Assembly (NCBI GenBank): GCA_030698885.1
Contig: JAUYLN010000019.1
Location: 62,001 to 126,000 of the forward strand
Direction: 5' to 3'
Length of the DNA: 64,000 nt
Origin: a bacterium
GTDB lineage: Bacteria > Patescibacteriota > Minisyncoccia > 2-02-FULL-40-12 > IGHO2-01-FULL-4-A
In this document: positions 26,234 to 35,208 of the stretch, piece by piece
Position numbering within the stretch: position 1 is the first letter of the stretch
How the letters are laid out: each line of letters begins with the position of its first letter
The notes under the pieces: model-generated
Told to the model about the DNA's origin: nothing
Seen by the model: the letters and a program-made list of their open reading frames with translations, nothing else
The model's database searches: none
Translations under genes and position numbers: made by a program

Positions 26234-26780
26234 AGACTTTGGGTTTTCACTAATTGAAGTGCTGGTAGTTACTACCGTTATAGCCGTTGTGTCAACGGTT
26301 TTAATTTTAAATTTCAGACCATCTACCACCAATGAAGCATCCTTCAACAGAGCGGCTTCATTGGTGGTAGCTGATTTTCGTAAAACCCAGTCAGAGGCTT
26401 CTTCTTTGGTGTTATATGGGGGACAGCCGGCCTGTGGCTATGGCATTCATTACGTAGACAAATCTACTTATATAGTTTACGCCGGCCTAACATCCGGAGG
26501 CGCTTCTTGCGCCTCAAGCTCAAGAGGCTATCAGTCTTCCATTGATGCAACAGTGGAGACTAAAAAATTAATAAACGATAAGTTAGAATTTAGAAGCTCT
26601 TTTAAGGATATATTTTTTGAGCCTCCGGATCCAAAAACTTATCTCCAGAATGATGCCTCCCCGGGTGCCAATCCTGAAACTATTACTATAATAGAAAAAG
26701 GGGGCAACAACTGTACTCAGGCCAAATGTATATATATAGATATTTATACTTCGGGTAGAATAGAAATTAGAACCCAATAA
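26226..26780 (+). CDS. Minor prepilin, GspH-like
   Basis: Prepilin signal G|FSLIEVLVVTTVIAVVSTVLI near the N-terminus, then a helix and a C-terminal domain with a Cys pair (CGYGIHY ... CASSSRGY). 184 aa. Its ATG overlaps the stop of the upstream gene (ATGAATAG). Probably a minor pilin that primes pilus assembly. Confidence 0.85.
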   Translation: MNRDFGFSLIEVLVVTTVIAVVSTVLILNFRPSTTNEASFNRAASLVVADFRKTQSEASSLVLYGGQPACGYGIHYVDKSTYIVYAGLTSGGASCASSSRGYQSSIDATVETKKLINDKLEFRSSFKDIFFEPPDPKTYLQNDASPGANPETITIIEKGGNNCTQAKCIYIDIYTSGRIEIRTQ

Positions 26781-28518: not shown

Positions 28519-30564
28519 ATGGTAAAGCAGGAAGCGAAAAAACGCCTGGACAAGCTCAAAGGCCTCATCAATAAATACCGGCATAGCCGGCTTGTTTTAG
28601 ATAAAACCATAGCTGACGAACAGGTAGAAGATTCACTCAAAAAAGAGCTTTTTGATATTGAGCAGGAGTTTCCGGATTTGGTTACCTCTGATTCTCCAAG
28701 CCAAAGAGTAGGCGGTGAACCCCTGAGAGAATTTAAAAAAGTTAAACACCCAGAAAGAATGCTCTCTTTCAATGATGTTTTTAATAATAAAGACATTACT
28801 GATTGGGAAAACAGATTAAAGAGAATAGATCCAAGGGCTACCGAAGGAGGATTCTACTGCGAGCTCAAACTGGATGGTCTGGCCATAGAACTTATTTATG
28901 AAAATGGAGTTTTAAAAACAGGTGCAACTAGGGGAAACGGCACGGTCGGCGAAGACGTAACCCATAACTTAAAAACGATTGAAGCCATCCCACTGTCGTT
29001 ACCAGTTACCAGCCCCGACGCCTTTGGGTCGGGGTCCCGACAGAATCGTCGGGATTACCAGTTACCAGTTACCTTGGTCGTCCGAGGCGAAGTTTTTATT
29101 AATAAAAAAGACTTTGAAAAAATAAACAAAAGTCAGGACAAAGCTAACAATAAAATATACGCAAACCCAAGAAATCTCGCTGCCGGCTCAATAAGACAGC
29201 TGGACCCTAAGTTAACCGCTGAAAGGCACTTAGATTCATTCGCATATTCATTACTAACAGATTTAGGGCAAACAAAACATGAAGATGAACATGAGATACT
29301 TAAAAAAATAGGATTCAGAACAAATACCCACAATAAATTCTGTAAAAATCTAGAAGAAGTCCAAAAATTCAGAGACTACTGGGAGAAGCACCGCGAAAAA
29401 CTGCCGTATGAAATTGACGGTGTAGTGGTCATTGTGAACGACAATAGAATATTCAAGAAGCTGGGCATAGTCGGAAAAGCTCCGCGGGGAGCCGTGGCAT
29501 ACAAATTCTCTCCCAGACGCTCCACAACAACGATAAAAGATATCATCATCGGCGTAGGCCGAACGGGAACGCTTACTCCCGTGGCAGTCCTTGAGCCGGT
29601 TGAGATAGGAGGTACTATGGTGTCCCGGGCGACACTGCATAACGAAGATGAAATAAAGCGCCTTGGCATTAAAATAGGCGATACAGTGGTGGTAGAAAGG
29701 GCGGGGGACGTGATTCCTGATATCAAGCAAGTTTTAACGGAACTTCGCACAGGCAAAGAAAAGTCTTTTCATTTTCCTACTAAATGTCCGTCATGCAATG
29801 AACCCGTAAAAAGGCTTGAGGGCGAGGTGGCTTACAAATGCGTTAATAAAAATTGTCCTGCCATAAAAAGAGAGGGGATGTATCATTTTATTTCAAGGTC
29901 TGCGATGGATATGGATGGCATCGGCCCTAAAATAATTGACCAGCTTATGGATTCGGGCCTGATAAAAGACTCCGCCGATTTATACGGCTTAACCAAAGAA
30001 GACCTGCTTAACTTGGAAAGATTTGCCGAAAAATCAGCCGATAATGCTATCTCTGCTATCCAATCAAAAAAGACCGTGTCATTGGACAGATTTATTTATG
30101 CCCTTGGCATACCCCATGTCGGTTCTGAAACCGCGGTGGATTTAGCCAGAAAATTCGGCACCCTTGAAAAATTATCTAAAACCGATAAAGAAGAGCTGGA
30201 GGCTATCAAAGATATTGGAGCCACGGTGGCAGAAAGTATTTATGACTGGTTTAATAACGGCTATAATCAAAATCTTATTAAAAAGCTAAACTCTGCCGGC
30301 ATAAAAATCCTGAAGCAGGAGAGTTCGCAAAAATCTTCAAAGCTTAAGGGGATGACGTTTGTATTTACGGGTACCCTTGAAACTATCGCCCGCGAGCAAG
30401 GAGAGGAGATGGTCCGTGAACATGGGGGCGACACTTCATCATCAGTGTCTAAAGAAACTAGTTATGTTGTGGCGGGGGAGAATGCGGGGTCAAAGTTGGA
30501 TAAGGCAAATAAATTAGGAGTGAAAATTATTGATGAAAAGGAATTTTTGAAGATAGTTTCTTGA
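28519..30564 (+). CDS. ligA: NAD-dependent DNA ligase
   Basis: Seals nicks using NAD+. The domain Ia start, adenylation motif CELKLDGLAIEL (Lys ~117), OB fold, Cys4 zinc finger (CPSC ... CVNKNC, ~423-445), HhH repeats (AMDMDGIGPKIIDQL, ALGIPHVGSETA) and C-terminal BRCT (~604-681, GMTFVFTGTL) are all present. Residues ~159-184 (LPVTSPDAFGSGSRQNRRD) come from an inserted palindromic repeat that also occurs between genes. No Shine-Dalgarno site. Confidence 0.97.
   Translation: MVKQEAKKRLDKLKGLINKYRHSRLVLDKTIADEQVEDSLKKELFDIEQEFPDLVTSDSPSQRVGGEPLREFKKVKHPERMLSFNDVFNNKDITDWENRLKRIDPRATEGGFYCELKLDGLAIELIYENGVLKTGATRGNGTVGEDVTHNLKTIEAIPLSLPVTSPDAFGSGSRQNRRDYQLPVTLVVRGEVFINKKDFEKINKSQDKANNKIYANPRNLAAGSIRQLDPKLTAERHLDSFAYSLLTDLGQTKHEDEHEILKKIGFRTNTHNKFCKNLEEVQKFRDYWEKHREKLPYEIDGVVVIVNDNRIFKKLGIVGKAPRGAVAYKFSPRRSTTTIKDIIIGVGRTGTLTPVAVLEPVEIGGTMVSRATLHNEDEIKRLGIKIGDTVVVERAGDVIPDIKQVLTELRTGKEKSFHFPTKCPSCNEPVKRLEGEVAYKCVNKNCPAIKREGMYHFISRSAMDMDGIGPKIIDQLMDSGLIKDSADLYGLTKEDLLNLERFAEKSADNAISAIQSKKTVSLDRFIYALGIPHVGSETAVDLARKFGTLEKLSKTDKEELEAIKDIGATVAESIYDWFNNGYNQNLIKKLNSAGIKILKQESSQKSSKLKGMTFVFTGTLETIAREQGEEMVREHGGDTSSSVSKETSYVVAGENAGSKLDKANKLGVKIIDEKEFLKIVS
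29000..29072. repeat. Palindromic repeat inserted in frame in ligA
   Basis: TTACCAGTTACC units flank two hairpins, CCCCGAC/GTCGGGG and TCCCGAC/GTCGGGA. The same parts lie in the non-coding region 13869-13985. Confidence 0.8.
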
Positions 30565-30824: not shown

Positions 30825-30866
30825 AAAAAAAAACACCCGCCAGAGGTCTTGCGACATGGCGGGGTT
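30825..30866 (-). terminator. Terminator of the cassette operon
   Basis: Read on the minus strand: CCCGCCA/TGGCGGG stem followed by TGTTTTTTTTT, ~50 nt after the last stop. This confirms minus-strand transcription of the array. Confidence 0.85.
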
Positions 30867-30915
30867 TCATCTTTAACGGTAGATGATGACCGGTTAGGGT
30901 TAGAGGAGAACTATA

Positions 30916-31431
30916 CTACCAGTTGGGCCTGGTGGGCCAGTAGGGCACCCACTCTGACTTTTCAGCCAGGTGAATGTAATCACACCCATTCTCCATCCAG
31001 TCGGCCCTGTGGGGACACTCCTCCGGCGAAGAGCATGTGTAACTATGCCCCGCCTGTTTGTAGATGAGCGTCCCTGGAGGCGTAATGTCTCTACACCCTC
31101 CCCTGACCCACAGATAGCCGGAGATCTCCCTGACCTCGACATTCTGCCCGGCCGGTGCCAAGGTCTTTCCCCGAGGAATCGCGAAAAACTCCTCATAGGT
31201 TGACCCGTGGCTGTCGTAGCCGGTAAAGACAGCTACCTGATAACCGTCTGGCGGTTCCGGTATGGGCGCCCCGGTGCAAAGTTCATTCCCGTACCTGTAG
31301 GTCGGGCGGGCTTGTGCCATAACTACGGCAACAAGACTCGCACGCGCCGACTTCTCGGTGGGATAGAACTCACCACTCACGGCGTTGCATGACTCACACC
31401 CTCCTACCGCAAAGCTAATTTCTGGAATCAT
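30916..31431 (-). CDS. Cassette operon gene 5, unknown protein
   Basis: A 171-aa soluble protein, the last of five cassette genes. It is rich in Cys (GGCESCNAVSG, GNELCTG, RGGCRDI, YTCSSPEECPHR, ENGCDYI) and aromatic residues, which suggests metal binding or disulfides. No signal peptide and no recognised family. The start MIPEIS (31431) is chosen because GGGAG lies just upstream; the frame stays open through the repeated leader to 31521, but those residues come from the repeat. Confidence 0.7.
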   Translation of the reverse strand: MIPEISFAVGGCESCNAVSGEFYPTEKSARASLVAVVMAQARPTYRYGNELCTGAPIPEPPDGYQVAVFTGYDSHGSTYEEFFAIPRGKTLAPAGQNVEVREISGYLWVRGGCRDITPPGTLIYKQAGHSYTCSSPEECPHRADWMENGCDYIHLAEKSEWVPYWPTRPNW

Positions 31432-31446
31432 CTCAATCTCCCTGTT

Positions 31447-31628
31447 CCACACCTGCCATTTCTGGTCAGGATTTACTGGAAACATAACTTTTCGAAATAA
31501 CTTTGGAATTGCTTCCACCAAAGTATTCTCTTTTGAAAATATTTTGGTGGAGGCCCGATCAAATTACGATCGGGCTTTTTAAGAACATACTTGCACCTCC
31601 TTTGTGTGGACCTCTTTACGGCTGGTCA
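31447..31628 (-). promoter_or_regulatory. Cassette leader repeat U1 (before gene 5)
   Basis: A full ~180-bp unit. In transcript order: CTGACCAG box, AAAGGAGGTG site, 9-codon minicistron (ATG 31588, stop 31559-31561), hairpin A (GCCCGATC/GATCGGGC), hairpin B (16-bp stem closed by CCACC/GGTGG with an AAAA loop), a conserved ATTCCAAAGTT tail, a second CTGACCAG box, and the gene's own SD. Confidence 0.85.
31559..31588 (-). CDS. Leader minicistron in U1 (9 codons)
   Basis: MFLKSPIVI followed by TGA, with the very strong AAAGGAGGTG site 5 nt upstream. Identical copies are in U3 and U4. The codons overlap hairpin A, so translation would unfold it. Whether it is translated is not shown. Confidence 0.5.
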   Translation of the reverse strand: MFLKSPIVI

Positions 31629-31639
31629 AGCCGCGCAGA

Positions 31640-32047
31640 TTATGCGGACTTGGCCATCGTGAGCAACCCCCTCTCCAAAGCCTCTTGGATTGAAGGACAA
31701 CCGTAGTCGACGGCGTATTGGCACATCATGATATTATTCATAACGTCCGATACAATCTTTTCGTCAGACCCTTCCACTATTACAGCAATGGTATCTGGCT
31801 TTCTGCCGTAATGACAGGTGTAATTTATTTCAACATTCACCCTGTCAGATTCAAGCTTATCTATCTGACTAAAACCAGAGCTTGCATCTCCGACGCAGTA
31901 TTCATTAGTGCTTCTGCACCTGGAGTAGAGGTGCCTTACAGCTTCCTCGGCAAGCAATTTTACCTGGGAAGAGAAGGAGGCAGTTCCATTCAGACCTTTC
32001 ATGGTCTTTGTCTTTTTCGTGCTAGCAACGATGATCGTCTTTTCCAT
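31640..32047 (-). CDS. Cassette operon gene 4, unknown protein
   Basis: A 135-aa soluble protein from MEKTIIVAS (32047), with GAGGGG just upstream. It shows a mixed alpha/beta pattern and several Cys (RCRSTNEYC, NYTCHYG, MMCQYAVDYGC). No family recognised. It stops with TAA 15 bp before the next leader repeat. Confidence 0.7.
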   Translation of the reverse strand: MEKTIIVASTKKTKTMKGLNGTASFSSQVKLLAEEAVRHLYSRCRSTNEYCVGDASSGFSQIDKLESDRVNVEINYTCHYGRKPDTIAVIVEGSDEKIVSDVMNNIMMCQYAVDYGCPSIQEALERGLLTMAKSA

Positions 32048-32061
32048 TTTGAACCCCTCAT

Positions 32062-32187
32062 CCACACCTGCCATTTCTGGTCAGGATTTACTGGAAAATA
32101 ACTTTTCTTGAAAAGAACTTTGGAATTACTTCCACCAAAGTATTCTCTTTTGAAAATATTTTGGTGGAGGCCGAACTTTCGTTCGGC
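32062..32187 (-). promoter_or_regulatory. Cassette leader repeat U2 (before gene 4), variant
   Basis: Hairpin B and the downstream tail match U1/U3. The upstream part is different: no minicistron, and hairpin A is replaced by GCCGAAC/GTTCGGC with a GAAA loop at the same place. This is sequence change with structure kept. Confidence 0.8.
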
Positions 32188-32214
32188 ACCTGCGTGGCAG
32201 GATTTTGAAATGTA

Positions 32215-32691
32215 CTAGGATTTCTTGGGGTGAGATGGCGACCCCAGGGGAGTCAGGGGCCTAATAGTACTGGTTGGTATGCCCGGACTCGCCAAAGTTT
32301 GAGTGACTTCTGATTCGGAAAGTGTAGACGAATCACTGCGCTTCGTCTCTATCCTTGGAGTGTTAGCGAGCAGAAGAGTTTTCGCCCTTTTTGCCCACGC
32401 CTCCAGTTCGGCCCTGCGGACGCTGTAGATTGTCCACTTATTGTAACTGTAAGGGTCCACGTATTTTCTCGAGAACACGCTTACTGTCTCGGGACGGGCA
32501 TTTCGAATCGCCTCTCTTTTTTCTACCGTCATGTATCCAAGGTATCGACGGAGAACGTAGTCAAGGCGCGCGTATTCACGCTTGCCGTTGTGATCAAACA
32601 CAACATGCATGCGGATGACCCACGGCGTTTCTCCATAACCGTTGGTCCACTCCTTACTTTCCTCCACATCAATAACCTTTGCGGTAATCAT
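32215..32691 (-). CDS. Cassette operon gene 3, unknown protein
   Basis: A 158-aa protein starting MITAKVIDVEES (32691) after GGGGAGATTCGAG. The first ~110 residues are an alpha/beta domain with many charged residues and Tyr/Arg (YARLDYVLRRYLGYMTVEKRE). The last ~40 are Ser/Thr/Pro-rich and probably disordered (SPGIPTSTIRPLTPLGSPS). No family recognised. Confidence 0.7.
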   Translation of the reverse strand: MITAKVIDVEESKEWTNGYGETPWVIRMHVVFDHNGKREYARLDYVLRRYLGYMTVEKREAIRNARPETVSVFSRKYVDPYSYNKWTIYSVRRAELEAWAKRAKTLLLANTPRIETKRSDSSTLSESEVTQTLASPGIPTSTIRPLTPLGSPSHPKKS

Positions 32692-32709
32692 CTCTCGAAT
32701 CTCCCCATT

Positions 32710-32893
32710 CCACACCTGCCATTTCTGGTCAGGATTTACTGGAAAATAACTTTTCTTGAAAAGAACTTTGGAATTTCTCCCACCAAAGTATTCTCTTTTG
32801 AAAATATTTTGGTGGAGGCCCGATCAAATTACGATCGGGCTTTTTAAGAACATACTTGCACCTCCTTTGTGTGGACCTCTTTACGGCTGGTCA
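32710..32893 (-). promoter_or_regulatory. Cassette leader repeat U3 (before gene 3)
   Basis: A full unit, nearly identical to U1, with minicistron ATG at 32853 and stop at 32824-32826. The TGA stop of upstream gene 2 (32891-32893) lies within the CTGACCAG box at the unit's edge. Confidence 0.85.
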
Positions 32894-33244
32894 GGCTGTT
32901 TGCCACTCTGGAGGTTTGACACTCCCGTGGCTGATTCGTGCGCAGTCCGAGGAAATGAGTCGGAACTTTTCCTCATACTCTTCCGACTTCACCCCACACT
33001 TCTCCAAAAGGGCTAGGCTGGAAGCGTACTCTGCATGCTTCTGTCTTAGGATACTCAACTGCTGATTCATCGGCCCCAAGACACTCGCTGTCGGACACAT
33101 GTTTTCCAGCACGGCTTTAGCAGCTTCCACCCCCTTGAGCTCGCGCTGAACGATGCTCTGGTGGTGCTGGTTCTTCTTGATGTAGAGAATAGCTTTCAGC
33201 ACTTTGACAAGTCCTTCGGCGTACATAACTTGAGCGATGAACAT
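32891..33244 (-). CDS. Cassette operon gene 2, unknown protein
   Basis: A 117-aa, mainly helical protein (KVLKAILYIKKNQHHQSIVQ, NQQLSILRQKHAEYASSLALLEKCG), possibly a four-helix bundle. The start MFIAQVMYAEG (33244) follows GAGGAGATTCGAATT. Its stop codon is supplied by the leader repeat. No family recognised. Confidence 0.7.
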   Translation of the reverse strand: MFIAQVMYAEGLVKVLKAILYIKKNQHHQSIVQRELKGVEAAKAVLENMCPTASVLGPMNQQLSILRQKHAEYASSLALLEKCGVKSEEYEEKFRLISSDCARISHGSVKPPEWQTA

Positions 33245-33275
33245 AATTCGAATCTCCTCTTCTGAGTTCACTTGT

Positions 33276-33415
33276 GATATTGAAAGAACTTGGAATTTCT
33301 CCCACCAAAGTATTCTCTTTTGAAAATATTTTGGTGGAGGCCCGATCAAATTACGATCGGGCTTTTTAAGAACATACTTGCACCTCCTTTAGGTGGACCT
33401 CTTTACGGCTGGTCA
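33276..33415 (-). promoter_or_regulatory. Cassette leader repeat U4 (before gene 2)
   Basis: Minicistron (33346-33375), hairpin A and hairpin B as in U1/U3. Its downstream tail ends TTCTTTCAATATC instead of the longer U1-U3 tail, a feature shared only with U5. Gene 1's TGA lies in its edge box. Confidence 0.85.
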
Positions 33416-33718
33416 GGCCGACGCAATCTGCTGCGTGAGGAATTGTTGGGCCTCAGCAATAGCCCCCTCTATCAACTCCTTTATGGTATCGGCAAACATA
33501 TAGCCGAGAAAGATGCCTCTGTTTTCTGCCTCTTTGCTGGAGATGCCAAACGGGTATCTTTCTTTAGGTATCGTCAGGGGGGCAGAATAGGTGTAAAGCA
33601 CAGCAATGCCGCTTCCCGGCTTATACACCTCTGCCTTGAAAGTACAGAAATCTTCAACTCTTTCTTCCCACACCACTATGCTTAAGTAGACATCGAATCC
33701 GTCTTTTTCAATTTTCAT
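33413..33718 (-). CDS. Cassette operon gene 1, unknown protein
   Basis: A 101-aa protein, promoter-proximal. A beta-rich N-terminal half (YLSIVVWEERVEDFCTFKAEVY) and a helical end (FADTIKELIEGAIAEAQQFLTQ) suggest a small alpha+beta fold. The start is MKIEKDGFDV (33718) with AAGAGG upstream; the longer frame to 33793 covers leader sequence. No family recognised. Confidence 0.7.
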   Translation of the reverse strand: MKIEKDGFDVYLSIVVWEERVEDFCTFKAEVYKPGSGIAVLYTYSAPLTIPKERYPFGISSKEAENRGIFLGYMFADTIKELIEGAIAEAQQFLTQQIASA

Positions 33719-33749
33719 AGAAACCTCTTTGCGTATCATGCTCGCCAGC

Positions 33750-33831
33750 GATATTGAAAAGAACTTTGGAATTACTTCCACCGGAACATTCAAATCTTGA
33801 ATACTCTGGTGGAAGGGGATTTGATACTCCC
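33750..33831 (-). promoter_or_regulatory. Cassette leader U5 in the operon's 5' UTR
   Basis: Hairpin A position is held by GGGA/TCCC. Hairpin B is again a 16-bp stem closed by CCACC/GGTGG but with different paired bases (ends TTCAA/TTGAA) and a 3-nt loop. The tail TTCTTTTCAATATC matches U4. Confidence 0.8.
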
Positions 33832-33849
33832 TTTTCTAATTATGTTATA

Positions 33850-33878
33850 AGTATAGCATAAAATAGGTGTTAAGTCAA
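33850..33878 (-). promoter_or_regulatory. Promoter of the cassette operon
   Basis: On the minus strand: TTGACT, 17-nt spacer, TATACT preceded by TGC (extended -10). The predicted start is near 33843, giving a ~125-nt 5' UTR that contains U5. Confidence 0.85.
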
Positions 33879-33913
33879 GATGCCGAAAAACAAGGATTTT
33901 ATAAGCAAACTTG

Positions 33914-33960
33914 GCCCAAAAGAACGCCTAAATCACTGATTTAGGCGTTCTTTTGGGCTT
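33914..33960. terminator. Perfect 22-bp palindromic hairpin
   Basis: GCCCAAAAGAACGCCTAAAT and its complement form a perfect stem with TCA/TGA at the tip. No strong T-run on either side. It insulates the cassette operon from the upstream gene. Confidence 0.6.
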
Positions 33961-34079: not shown

Positions 34080-34805
34080 CTACTTGTTTTTAAAAAGCTT
34101 ACCAAGATTGCTTAAATCAGGATGCTTATAGGTTCCGTCTACCATCTTGAAAACTCTTTTATCAACAAAAAACTTGTTTATAATCTCTCTTAAATTGCTC
34201 CATCGCCAAATATCGGGCAGGCCGTCTTTATGATTAAGGTTAGACCTTACCAATCTTCCCTCGTGCTGAAAAAGAGTTACGAATTTCTCGTCGGGCGGAG
34301 TTTTTACCGCATACTCTGAAAAACCGCATACGATACATAATCTGCGCCCATAATACCAGTCGTCGCGATCATAAGAATAGGAACCCTCGTATCCGGAGTG
34401 ACCGAATACAAACGGGTGAAGGCATATCTTCTGAAAGTCCTTCTTTAGGCTGTCTATTTCTCCCTTAAGTTCTCCCAGCTTTTTCACGCTTATATTCTCG
34501 TCGTTGCTGTCGGCAATTTTTTGAATTATCATCTTGCGTAACCTCATGACTTCTTTTGAAGGCTCTCTGCGCGCCAAGAGAGCTTCCTTAAAAAGAGATA
34601 TCTTTAATGTTGCATCATTTTTCTCATTATCTAATTTTTTCTGTTGTTCATTTAACACCCGGACTTGCTTATTTATTTCTGCCTGTTCTTCTGCTATATT
34701 TTTCATTTTTAATTCCGCTTCTTCTATATTTTTTGTTAATGTGCCCATCTTAATATCTTCAATTCTTTCTTGAATCTCCTGCTCTTGAGCTTGAGCTGGC
34801 TGCAT
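34080..34805 (-). CDS. Coiled-coil protein with a C-terminal Cys/His domain, unknown
   Basis: 241 aa. Residues ~10-125 form a long coiled coil (EEAELKMKNIAEEQAEINKQ). Residues ~127-165 hold CLHPFVFGHSG ... LCIVCGFSE, a likely zinc-binding Cys/His set, with an aromatic Tyr/Asp-rich loop between. No signal peptide. GGAAGGAG upstream gives a strong ribosome-binding site, as in the cassette genes, but it has its own terminator. Confidence 0.65.
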   Translation of the reverse strand: MQPAQAQEQEIQERIEDIKMGTLTKNIEEAELKMKNIAEEQAEINKQVRVLNEQQKKLDNEKNDATLKISLFKEALLARREPSKEVMRLRKMIIQKIADSNDENISVKKLGELKGEIDSLKKDFQKICLHPFVFGHSGYEGSYSYDRDDWYYGRRLCIVCGFSEYAVKTPPDEKFVTLFQHEGRLVRSNLNHKDGLPDIWRWSNLREIINKFFVDKRVFKMVDGTYKHPDLSNLGKLFKNK

Positions 34806-34899: not shown

Positions 34900-35208
34900 A
34901 TGGTAGACATCACAAAAACAACCGTTAACACCATCGCCAATCTCGCCAGAATTGAACTGACTGAAAAGGAGGAAGAAAAAATGGCCAAAGAACTTGGGTC
35001 AATTTTAAGCTATATTGATAAACTAAAGGAAGTGGACACGTCAAACGTAGAAGCAGACGCGAGCCCGCATCATGGTCTGATTAATCATCTGCGAAAAGAT
35101 GATAAGTCCAGCCACAATGCCGGCGACAACACAGAAAAATTACTGGCTCAAGCCCCCGAAACAAAAGACGGCTTCGTTAAAGTTCCGAGTATTTTAGAAA
35201 AAAAATGA
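34900..35208 (+). CDS. gatC: Asp-tRNA(Asn)/Glu-tRNA(Gln) amidotransferase subunit C
   Basis: A 102-aa subunit of GatCAB, which converts misacylated Glu-tRNA(Gln) or Asp-tRNA(Asn). Typical VNTIANLARIELTEKEEEKM and ILSYIDKLKEVDTSNVE motifs. It overlaps gatA by 4 bp (ATGA). gatB is not in the window. Confidence 0.93.
   Translation: MVDITKTTVNTIANLARIELTEKEEEKMAKELGSILSYIDKLKEVDTSNVEADASPHHGLINHLRKDDKSSHNAGDNTEKLLAQAPETKDGFVKVPSILEKK

Follow-up and report, generated by a model that had tools for sequence, protein, structure and literature searches.

A covarying structured RNA leader heads tandem arrays of small accessory genes in Patescibacteriota, with different genes at shared loci

Between ligA and gatC, a 64,000-nucleotide (nt) stretch of a Patescibacteriota genome (class Minisyncoccia; assembly GCA_030698885.1, contig JAUYLN010000019.1, positions 62,001 to 126,000, hereafter the window) carries an array of five small open reading frames (ORFs) of 101-171 amino acids (aa), all on the minus strand (30916-33718) and each preceded by a repeated leader (U0 to U4). 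The leader is a covarying structured RNA family without Rfam match, previously undescribed, which stands in one orientation before small ORFs and recurs in other genomes of the class, where the genes beside it (hereafter the cargo) differ between genomes at shared loci. Our favoured reading, to which we assign a probability of roughly 0.55, is that these loci are arrays of small accessory genes that can be exchanged and whose expression relies on a structured mRNA leader that remains constant; from sequence comparison we infer that exchange would proceed by recombination and that the leader would take part in it.

The leader folds as RNA

In the window, every leader begins at the stop codon of the gene before it, or close to the promoter in the case of ORF1, and extends to the ribosome-binding site (RBS) and the ATG. 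In the family consensus, a GC-rich hairpin of free sequence (H1) lies immediately before a long one (H2, 5'-CYAYCAAAG...UUUGRURG), after which come AG, a GUUCUUU box that about half of the copies have (30 of the 69 high-scoring leaders), a GAAA-loop hairpin (H3) in some groups, the RBS and the start codon. Two-sided changes were found at 24 of the 25 pairs, with 209 such cells versus 58 in the shuffled and 18-54 in the slid alignments. Since the alignment used (A5) was fitted to the covariance model, which weighs against these counts, the test was repeated on a MAFFT alignment of 12 leaders, in which RNAalifold again finds H2, now with two-sided changes at 14 of 19 pairs. In addition, G-U greatly exceeds A-C both at the pairs of the model (62 versus 14) and at a pair position that the model omits (21 versus 4), and therefore it is the RNA of the leader strand that folds. 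Searched against Rfam 15, the leader matched no family at the gathering threshold (the window gives tRNAs only, and the array region chance-level matches), and the open-licence literature that we searched holds no description of the leader or of its layout, in line with an initial annotation of this DNA, which knew of no such system.

The same annotation had described the units as nearly identical in sequence or structure, and indeed U1 to U4 share 83-96% identity, with repeats of 98% over 112 nt (D1), 97/93% over 137 nt (D2) and five copies (D3). The units are nevertheless mosaic: H2 occurs in all five, with two-sided changes in U0 against the other units, one 5' module is common to U1, U2 and U4 and one 3' module to U2, U3 and U4, whereas U3 has another 5' module and U0 and U1 another 3' module. 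The H1 of U3 also differs from that of the other units (GCCGAAC-GAAA-GTTCGGC). A CTGACCAG box, with 8 occurrences in the window, 5 of them in the array, versus 0.86 expected, was initially placed at each unit edge, but this is not general, since it lies at both edges in U2 only, and inexactly in U4 (CTTGACCAG), at the 5' edge only in U1, at the 3' edge only in U3, and nowhere in U0. The two boxes are not equivalent either: ORF1 and ORF2 end with a TGA that lies in the 5' box, as the annotation had stated for two cases, and the 3' box forms the 5' arm of the GAAA-loop hairpin. Note that the 5' module of U1 carries AGGAGG plus a mini-ORF of 9 codons, and that a similar AGGAGG lies upstream of H1 at two loci of another genus (L124 and L127, below). 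As a general feature of the family, however, an AGGAGG upstream of H1 was rejected (15 of 69 leaders versus a background of 13%).

Leaders of one array resemble each other more closely than those of different genomes do, with 88% identity in L119, 82% in L135 and 82% in L131. Near-identical copies within single arrays, as also seen for U1 to U4, and a palindromic core are what would be left by a mobile or amplified palindromic repeat (resembling repetitive extragenic palindromes, REP, or miniature inverted-repeat transposable elements, MITE) that inserts after stop codons and was co-opted as a 5' untranslated region (UTR). We hold this origin to be improbable, since the copies keep one orientation relative to the gene, with an RBS and an ORF downstream, all those of the window genome are confined to this one array, the excess of G-U over A-C on the leader strand indicates that RNA pairing is selected, and inspection of the arrays, with no systematic search, revealed no transposase nearby.

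The arrangement of unrelated ORFs between near-identical imperfect palindromes of ~140-200 bp also recalls sedentary chromosomal integrons, and it could be an integron or an array of the CALIN type (cluster of attC sites lacking integron integrases), in which an integrase encoded elsewhere would act on attC-type sites. This is extremely improbable. Indeed, no GTTRRRY/RYYYAAC pair was found in U0 to U4 on either strand, the only tyrosine recombinase of the genome (assembly ~95% complete) is of the Xer type, lies on another contig and scores 128 bits where the cut-off for integron integrases is 265, and the repeat not only covaries as RNA but also includes the RBS region. The initial annotation had likewise seen neither attC R-box nor integrase.

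Distribution of the leader family

Searches with BLAST and sequence patterns in the genome itself, its family, its order, GTDB contigs and viral contigs found the leader only in this array, with chance matches elsewhere, so that the BLASTN search proposed in the initial annotation does not lead to relatives, which only covariance models find. A model of the five window leaders (R1) gave significant matches in other genomes of the class, many of them in tandem, and rescanning the fetched loci with the covariance model yielded 33 strong leaders. With the refined model (R2), matches were obtained in 40 of 368 genomes of the class (E ≤ 1e-3) and in 8 of 323 genomes of a phylum-wide sample; of the six genomes with matches outside the class, only G224 has them in tandem. 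About 20 genomes carry two or more matches, commonly 300-1800 nt apart on one strand. No match of R2 occurred in six unrelated genomes, a small negative control, and at the R2 threshold the leader is missing from all seven further genomes of the family to which the window belongs, the distribution being patchy. Two low-scoring matches of the model (L120 and L133) were dropped as terminator-like, and a weak match of R1 outside the array of the window (26298-26393, minus strand, 22.6 bits) is probably due to chance.

The closest leaders were found in G681. They align with U3 from a first hairpin (H0, CCTGCYAYGCAGG) to the RBS, the alignable parts being H0, H1 (GCCGAAC..GTTCGGC), H2, the GTTCTTT box, H3 and the RBS, and the third of them is 76% identical to U3. 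Between the window and the G681 leaders, H3 covaries (CCTGACCAGAAATGGCAGG, CCTGACTAGAAATAGCAGG and CTTGACTGGAAACGGCAAG). The cargo of G681 is unrelated to that of the window and includes a gene for a TauD-family dioxygenase.

Genes behind the leaders

Among the 66 high-scoring leaders lying away from sequence ends, 40 have an ORF of at least 45 codons led by a Shine-Dalgarno (SD) sequence within 110 nt on the same strand, versus 9 on the opposite strand and 18% of random positions. In a broader leader set, the median ORF, of ~82 aa, begins 42 nt behind the leader. The GC content of the cargo is 0.515, versus 0.447 for the flanking long genes (Wilcoxon p 6e-5, 30 loci). Recurrent cargo families display ratios of nonsynonymous to synonymous substitution rates (dN/dS) of 0.15-0.46 in pairs with unsaturated synonymous sites, and they are therefore real proteins under selection at the protein level. 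In these few families, a leader was detected before some members and none before others.

The five ORFs of the window are mutually unrelated, as initially annotated: the shuffle z is below 1.1 for every pair except ORF3/ORF4 (z 4.6), for which BLASTP gives no alignment. They are also richer in GC than the window (0.46-0.58 versus 0.42), as had likewise been noticed. None of the five proteins received a name from the family libraries Pfam, NCBIfam, PHROG and PADLOC, nothing convincing matched ORF5 or ORF3 in the PDB, and single-sequence structure models of ORF3 and ORF5 (predicted local distance difference test, pLDDT, of 53 and 49) are not interpretable. ORF2 is the only one with a convincing relative (E 6.7e-12), which lies in a genome of another family of the same phylum (G252) and conserves MF..QVM.AEGLV and SHGSVKPPEW; there, at locus L046, it belongs to a GC-rich operon of small ORFs beside a TrmB-family regulator gene, and its neighbours differ from those of ORF2. 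Weak protein matches at L047-L049 and L055-L057 were rejected on inspection.

Two further observations concern other arrays. A very small basic protein of 43-52 aa (family F2, RIPLPxxTGG...KGGKYRR-like; in L118, L119, L121, L123 and L132) recurs in many arrays, often without a detected leader of its own. Arrays of small GC-rich ORFs repeatedly adjoin a gene of the TrmB family (F1), as in L119, L173, L118, L123, L140 and L046, and this neighbour could possibly be a regulator or merely mark a permissive site.

Shared loci with different cargo

In two genomes of one genus (G583 and G424, loci L124 and L127), the flanks up- and downstream are ~81% identical and enclose a 162-bp segment with the leader that is 89% identical, while the genes before and after the leader are unrelated (74 aa versus 130 and 61 aa). 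A stretch of 51 nt, moreover, is shared without mismatch by the L124 leader and the second leader of L127, suggesting conversion between leaders. The common flanks of three other loci, L176, L179 and L129 (in G549, G520 and G467), consist of a PfkB-family kinase gene and a transketolase-like gene, the latter named from reading its sequence and not from a family search, and here too the cargo is unrelated (63, 71+85 and 133 aa, respectively). Two loci of one genome (L116 and L137) share 996 bp at 84% identity, which end inside the leader and are followed by different cargo. The order of cargo families also varies: F3-B in L119, B-F3 in L121 and L126, and F3-C in L173. Several arrays with shared cargo families adjoin a TrmB-type regulator gene.

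The main rival explanation is that the leader is a conserved cis-regulatory RNA over fast-turnover genes. It would be riboswitch-like, or would offer a protein or small-RNA site at the GUUCUUU box, over a regulon of accessory genes, it would have no part in exchange, and the differing genes would reflect ordinary gain and loss at hotspots. The strong covariation and the bias towards the RNA strand, the fixed position before RBS and ORF, the frequency of the GUUCUUU box among the high-scoring leaders and the TrmB-type regulator flanking several arrays all agree with such a role. However, H1 and the H2 loop vary freely and no sequence-conserved pocket of the aptamer kind was seen, near-identical leaders of one array precede unrelated genes, and at L124/L127 the leader stays while the genes on both sides differ. 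We thus regard this explanation as a real possibility, but rather an unlikely one.

Comparison of one locus between strains had initially been proposed as a check for changes of cargo; in other genomes, at L124/L127 and L176/L179/L129, such changes are seen. An ordinary operon with duplicated UTRs, the counter-reading then considered, agrees neither with the spread of the leader family through the class nor with the different neighbours of the ORF2 homologue. Of the first idea of a gene-cassette array, constant leaders with differing cargo remain, while boxes at both unit edges as a general feature and integron-like cassettes are not supported.

Site and bounds of the array

The array genome comprises 957 kb in 38 contigs and is 94.6% complete; its size and gene content fit the Patescibacteria/CPR type. 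In the sister genus (G001), gatC directly follows ligA without insert; the site of the window is empty there, so that the comparison with this sister genus shows the absence of the array and no change of cargo. In three genomes of the order, the ligA-gatC gap holds a reverse transcriptase gene, and the gap is an insertion hotspot. These three gaps are L084, L085 and L087 (G015, G016 and G034, respectively), with RVT_1 confirmed in L085 and L087; adjoining genes with W/N/D-rich stretches resemble, by eye, diversity-generating retroelements. The carriers of the arrays are tiny, probably symbiotic bacteria.

The features of the window are collected in Table 1. The initial annotation bounded the array by one promoter and one terminator. 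A promoter-like site does exist, but such sites are at chance frequency here (5 observed versus 5.1 expected). The terminator is visible by eye, and was missed by the automated scan because its loop is long. Just upstream of the promoter lies a perfect 22-bp inverted repeat with a 1-nt loop (33914-33958), between the promoter and a gene of 241 aa (34080-34805) that has distant homologues elsewhere in G004 and G035.

Table 1. Coordinates of the array and of its flanks in the window (CM, covariance model).
Feature	Position	Strand	Remarks
ligA, left flank of insertion site	28519-30564	+	ligA-gatC neighbourhood in most genomes of the order, variable gap
Intrinsic terminator closing the array	30825-30866	-	CCCGCCA...TGGCGGG then T run, seen by eye
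ORF5	30916-31431	-	171 aa, Cys-rich, GC 0.58; no family match
U4, leader of ORF5	31432-31639	-	5' module, H1, H2, box, H3, RBS; CM match 31488-31577
ORF4	31640-32047	-	135 aa; no family match
U3, leader of ORF4	32048-32214	-	H0 CCTGCCACGCAGG, H1, H2, box, H3, RBS; CM match 32105-32189
ORF3	32215-32691	-	158 aa; no family match
U2, leader of ORF3	32692-32893	-	5' module, H1, H2, GTTCTTT box, H3, RBS; CM match 32753-32842
H3 hairpin	32715-32733 (U2), 32067-32085 (U3), 31452-31470 (U4)	-	CCTGACCAGAAATGGCAGG, bulged A, GAAA loop
ORF2	32891-33244	-	117 aa; homologue in G252
U1, leader of ORF2	33245-33415	-	5' module, H1, H2, GTTC box, RBS; CM match 33277-33364; repeats D2/D3
Mini-ORF MFLKSPIVI	33346-33375 (U1)	-	after perfect AGGAGG, running into H1; read from sequence; same in U2, U4
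ORF1	33413-33718	-	101 aa; stop codon inside TGACCAG box; no Pfam/NCBIfam/PHROG/PADLOC family
U0, leader of ORF1	33719-33840	-	weak H1, H2, GTTCTTT box, RBS; CM match 33751-33834, 63 bits with R2
Putative sigma-70-type promoter	33850-33878	-	TTGACT-17-TATACT, TG before second hexamer; consensus match only
gatC (then gatA), right flank of insertion site	34900-35208	+	G001 comparison

Small orphan genes behind repeated start-associated sequences are also known from the Cluster K mycobacteriophages (PMC3203893), and the arrays might consist of early-gene modules of phage or plasmid origin stranded in the chromosome. We consider this very improbable, since the leader patterns and the cargo families F3 and F24 have no relative in viral contigs, ORF5, F3 and F24 are unmatched in phage records, ORF2 is unmatched in plasmid records and viral contigs, and the arrays lie between core genes.

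Discussion

According to our favoured reading, the leader would act as a constant 'socket' that supplies the untranslated part of a gene and behind which one coding sequence can take the place of another. The leader would persist at fixed chromosomal sites, and the genes behind it, sometimes also those before it, would be gained, lost, replaced or rearranged, most likely through homologous recombination with leaders and flanks as short homologies. As to the role of the RNA itself, the near absence of a spacer between H1 and the following H2 leads us to prefer insulation or processing over a ligand switch: H1 would close the upstream message at its 3' end and H2 would cap the downstream message at its 5' end, which would allow whatever ORF is inserted to be expressed independently of its neighbours. 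Judged from the layout of the hairpins, such an intercistronic insulator is plausible, at somewhat less than even odds. More tentatively, and with doubts prevailing, the arrays may form an integrase-free platform for gene capture in very small genomes, in which the RNA leader would be both expression module and homology anchor for exchange; as part of the same tentative proposal, this platform would converge functionally on integrons through mRNA architecture and not through a dedicated DNA recombination site.

Besides the fitted alignment mentioned above, several points weigh against the reading of exchangeable genes behind constant leaders. No exchange event was seen directly, and no recombinase or mobile intermediate was linked to the arrays; ordinary gene turnover at hotspots could yield the same picture. 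The genomes compared include only one of the window's genus, so that exchange at the window's own site is not visible. Some ORFs of the arrays stand without a detectable leader, and the G252 array around the ORF2 homologue has no detected leader of this family. Finally, the calibration behind the E-values was short, and terminator-like false positives occur among the weak single matches.

Altogether, these results add an RNA leader unmatched in Rfam, with a covariance model ready to use, and give a handle on the origin, clustering and expression of small genes that form a large and unexplained class in reduced-genome bacteria of the Patescibacteria kind. If exchange through leaders proves true, it would represent a second answer, built on an RNA leader, to the problem solved by integrons.

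The nearest analogue among known systems is the start-associated sequence (SAS) of Cluster K mycobacteriophages and its extended form (ESAS), a repeated element with inverted repeats located directly upstream of the starts of many small genes, in which a 13-bp core lies at the RBS and the stop codon of the upstream gene can lie within the element; according to the authors, the inverted repeats do not support RNA pairing, and ESAS stay with a gene family (PMC3203893). As with SAS, the repeated element of the window precedes small and mostly unknown genes, and the upstream stop can lie inside it. Unlike SAS, it is located in a bacterial chromosome, its hairpins covary as RNA and, at L124/L127, the leader stays with the locus; no SAS core of the GGGATAGGAGCCC type was found at the RBS among the leaders listed, whose RBS sequences vary between arrays. 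With sedentary chromosomal integrons and CALIN (e.g., PMC9024848), the arrays have in common tandem unrelated small genes, near-identical imperfect palindromes and a cargo that varies and reorders, but they lack attC core sites and an integron integrase, and their repeat is an RNA-folding 5' leader with an RBS. Similar to the structured 5'-UTR candidate motifs of Rfam, the leader is a widespread covarying RNA upstream of genes and was found by a covariance model; in contrast to these motifs, it precedes each of several unrelated genes that stand in tandem within a single operon, and the cargo differs at shared loci.

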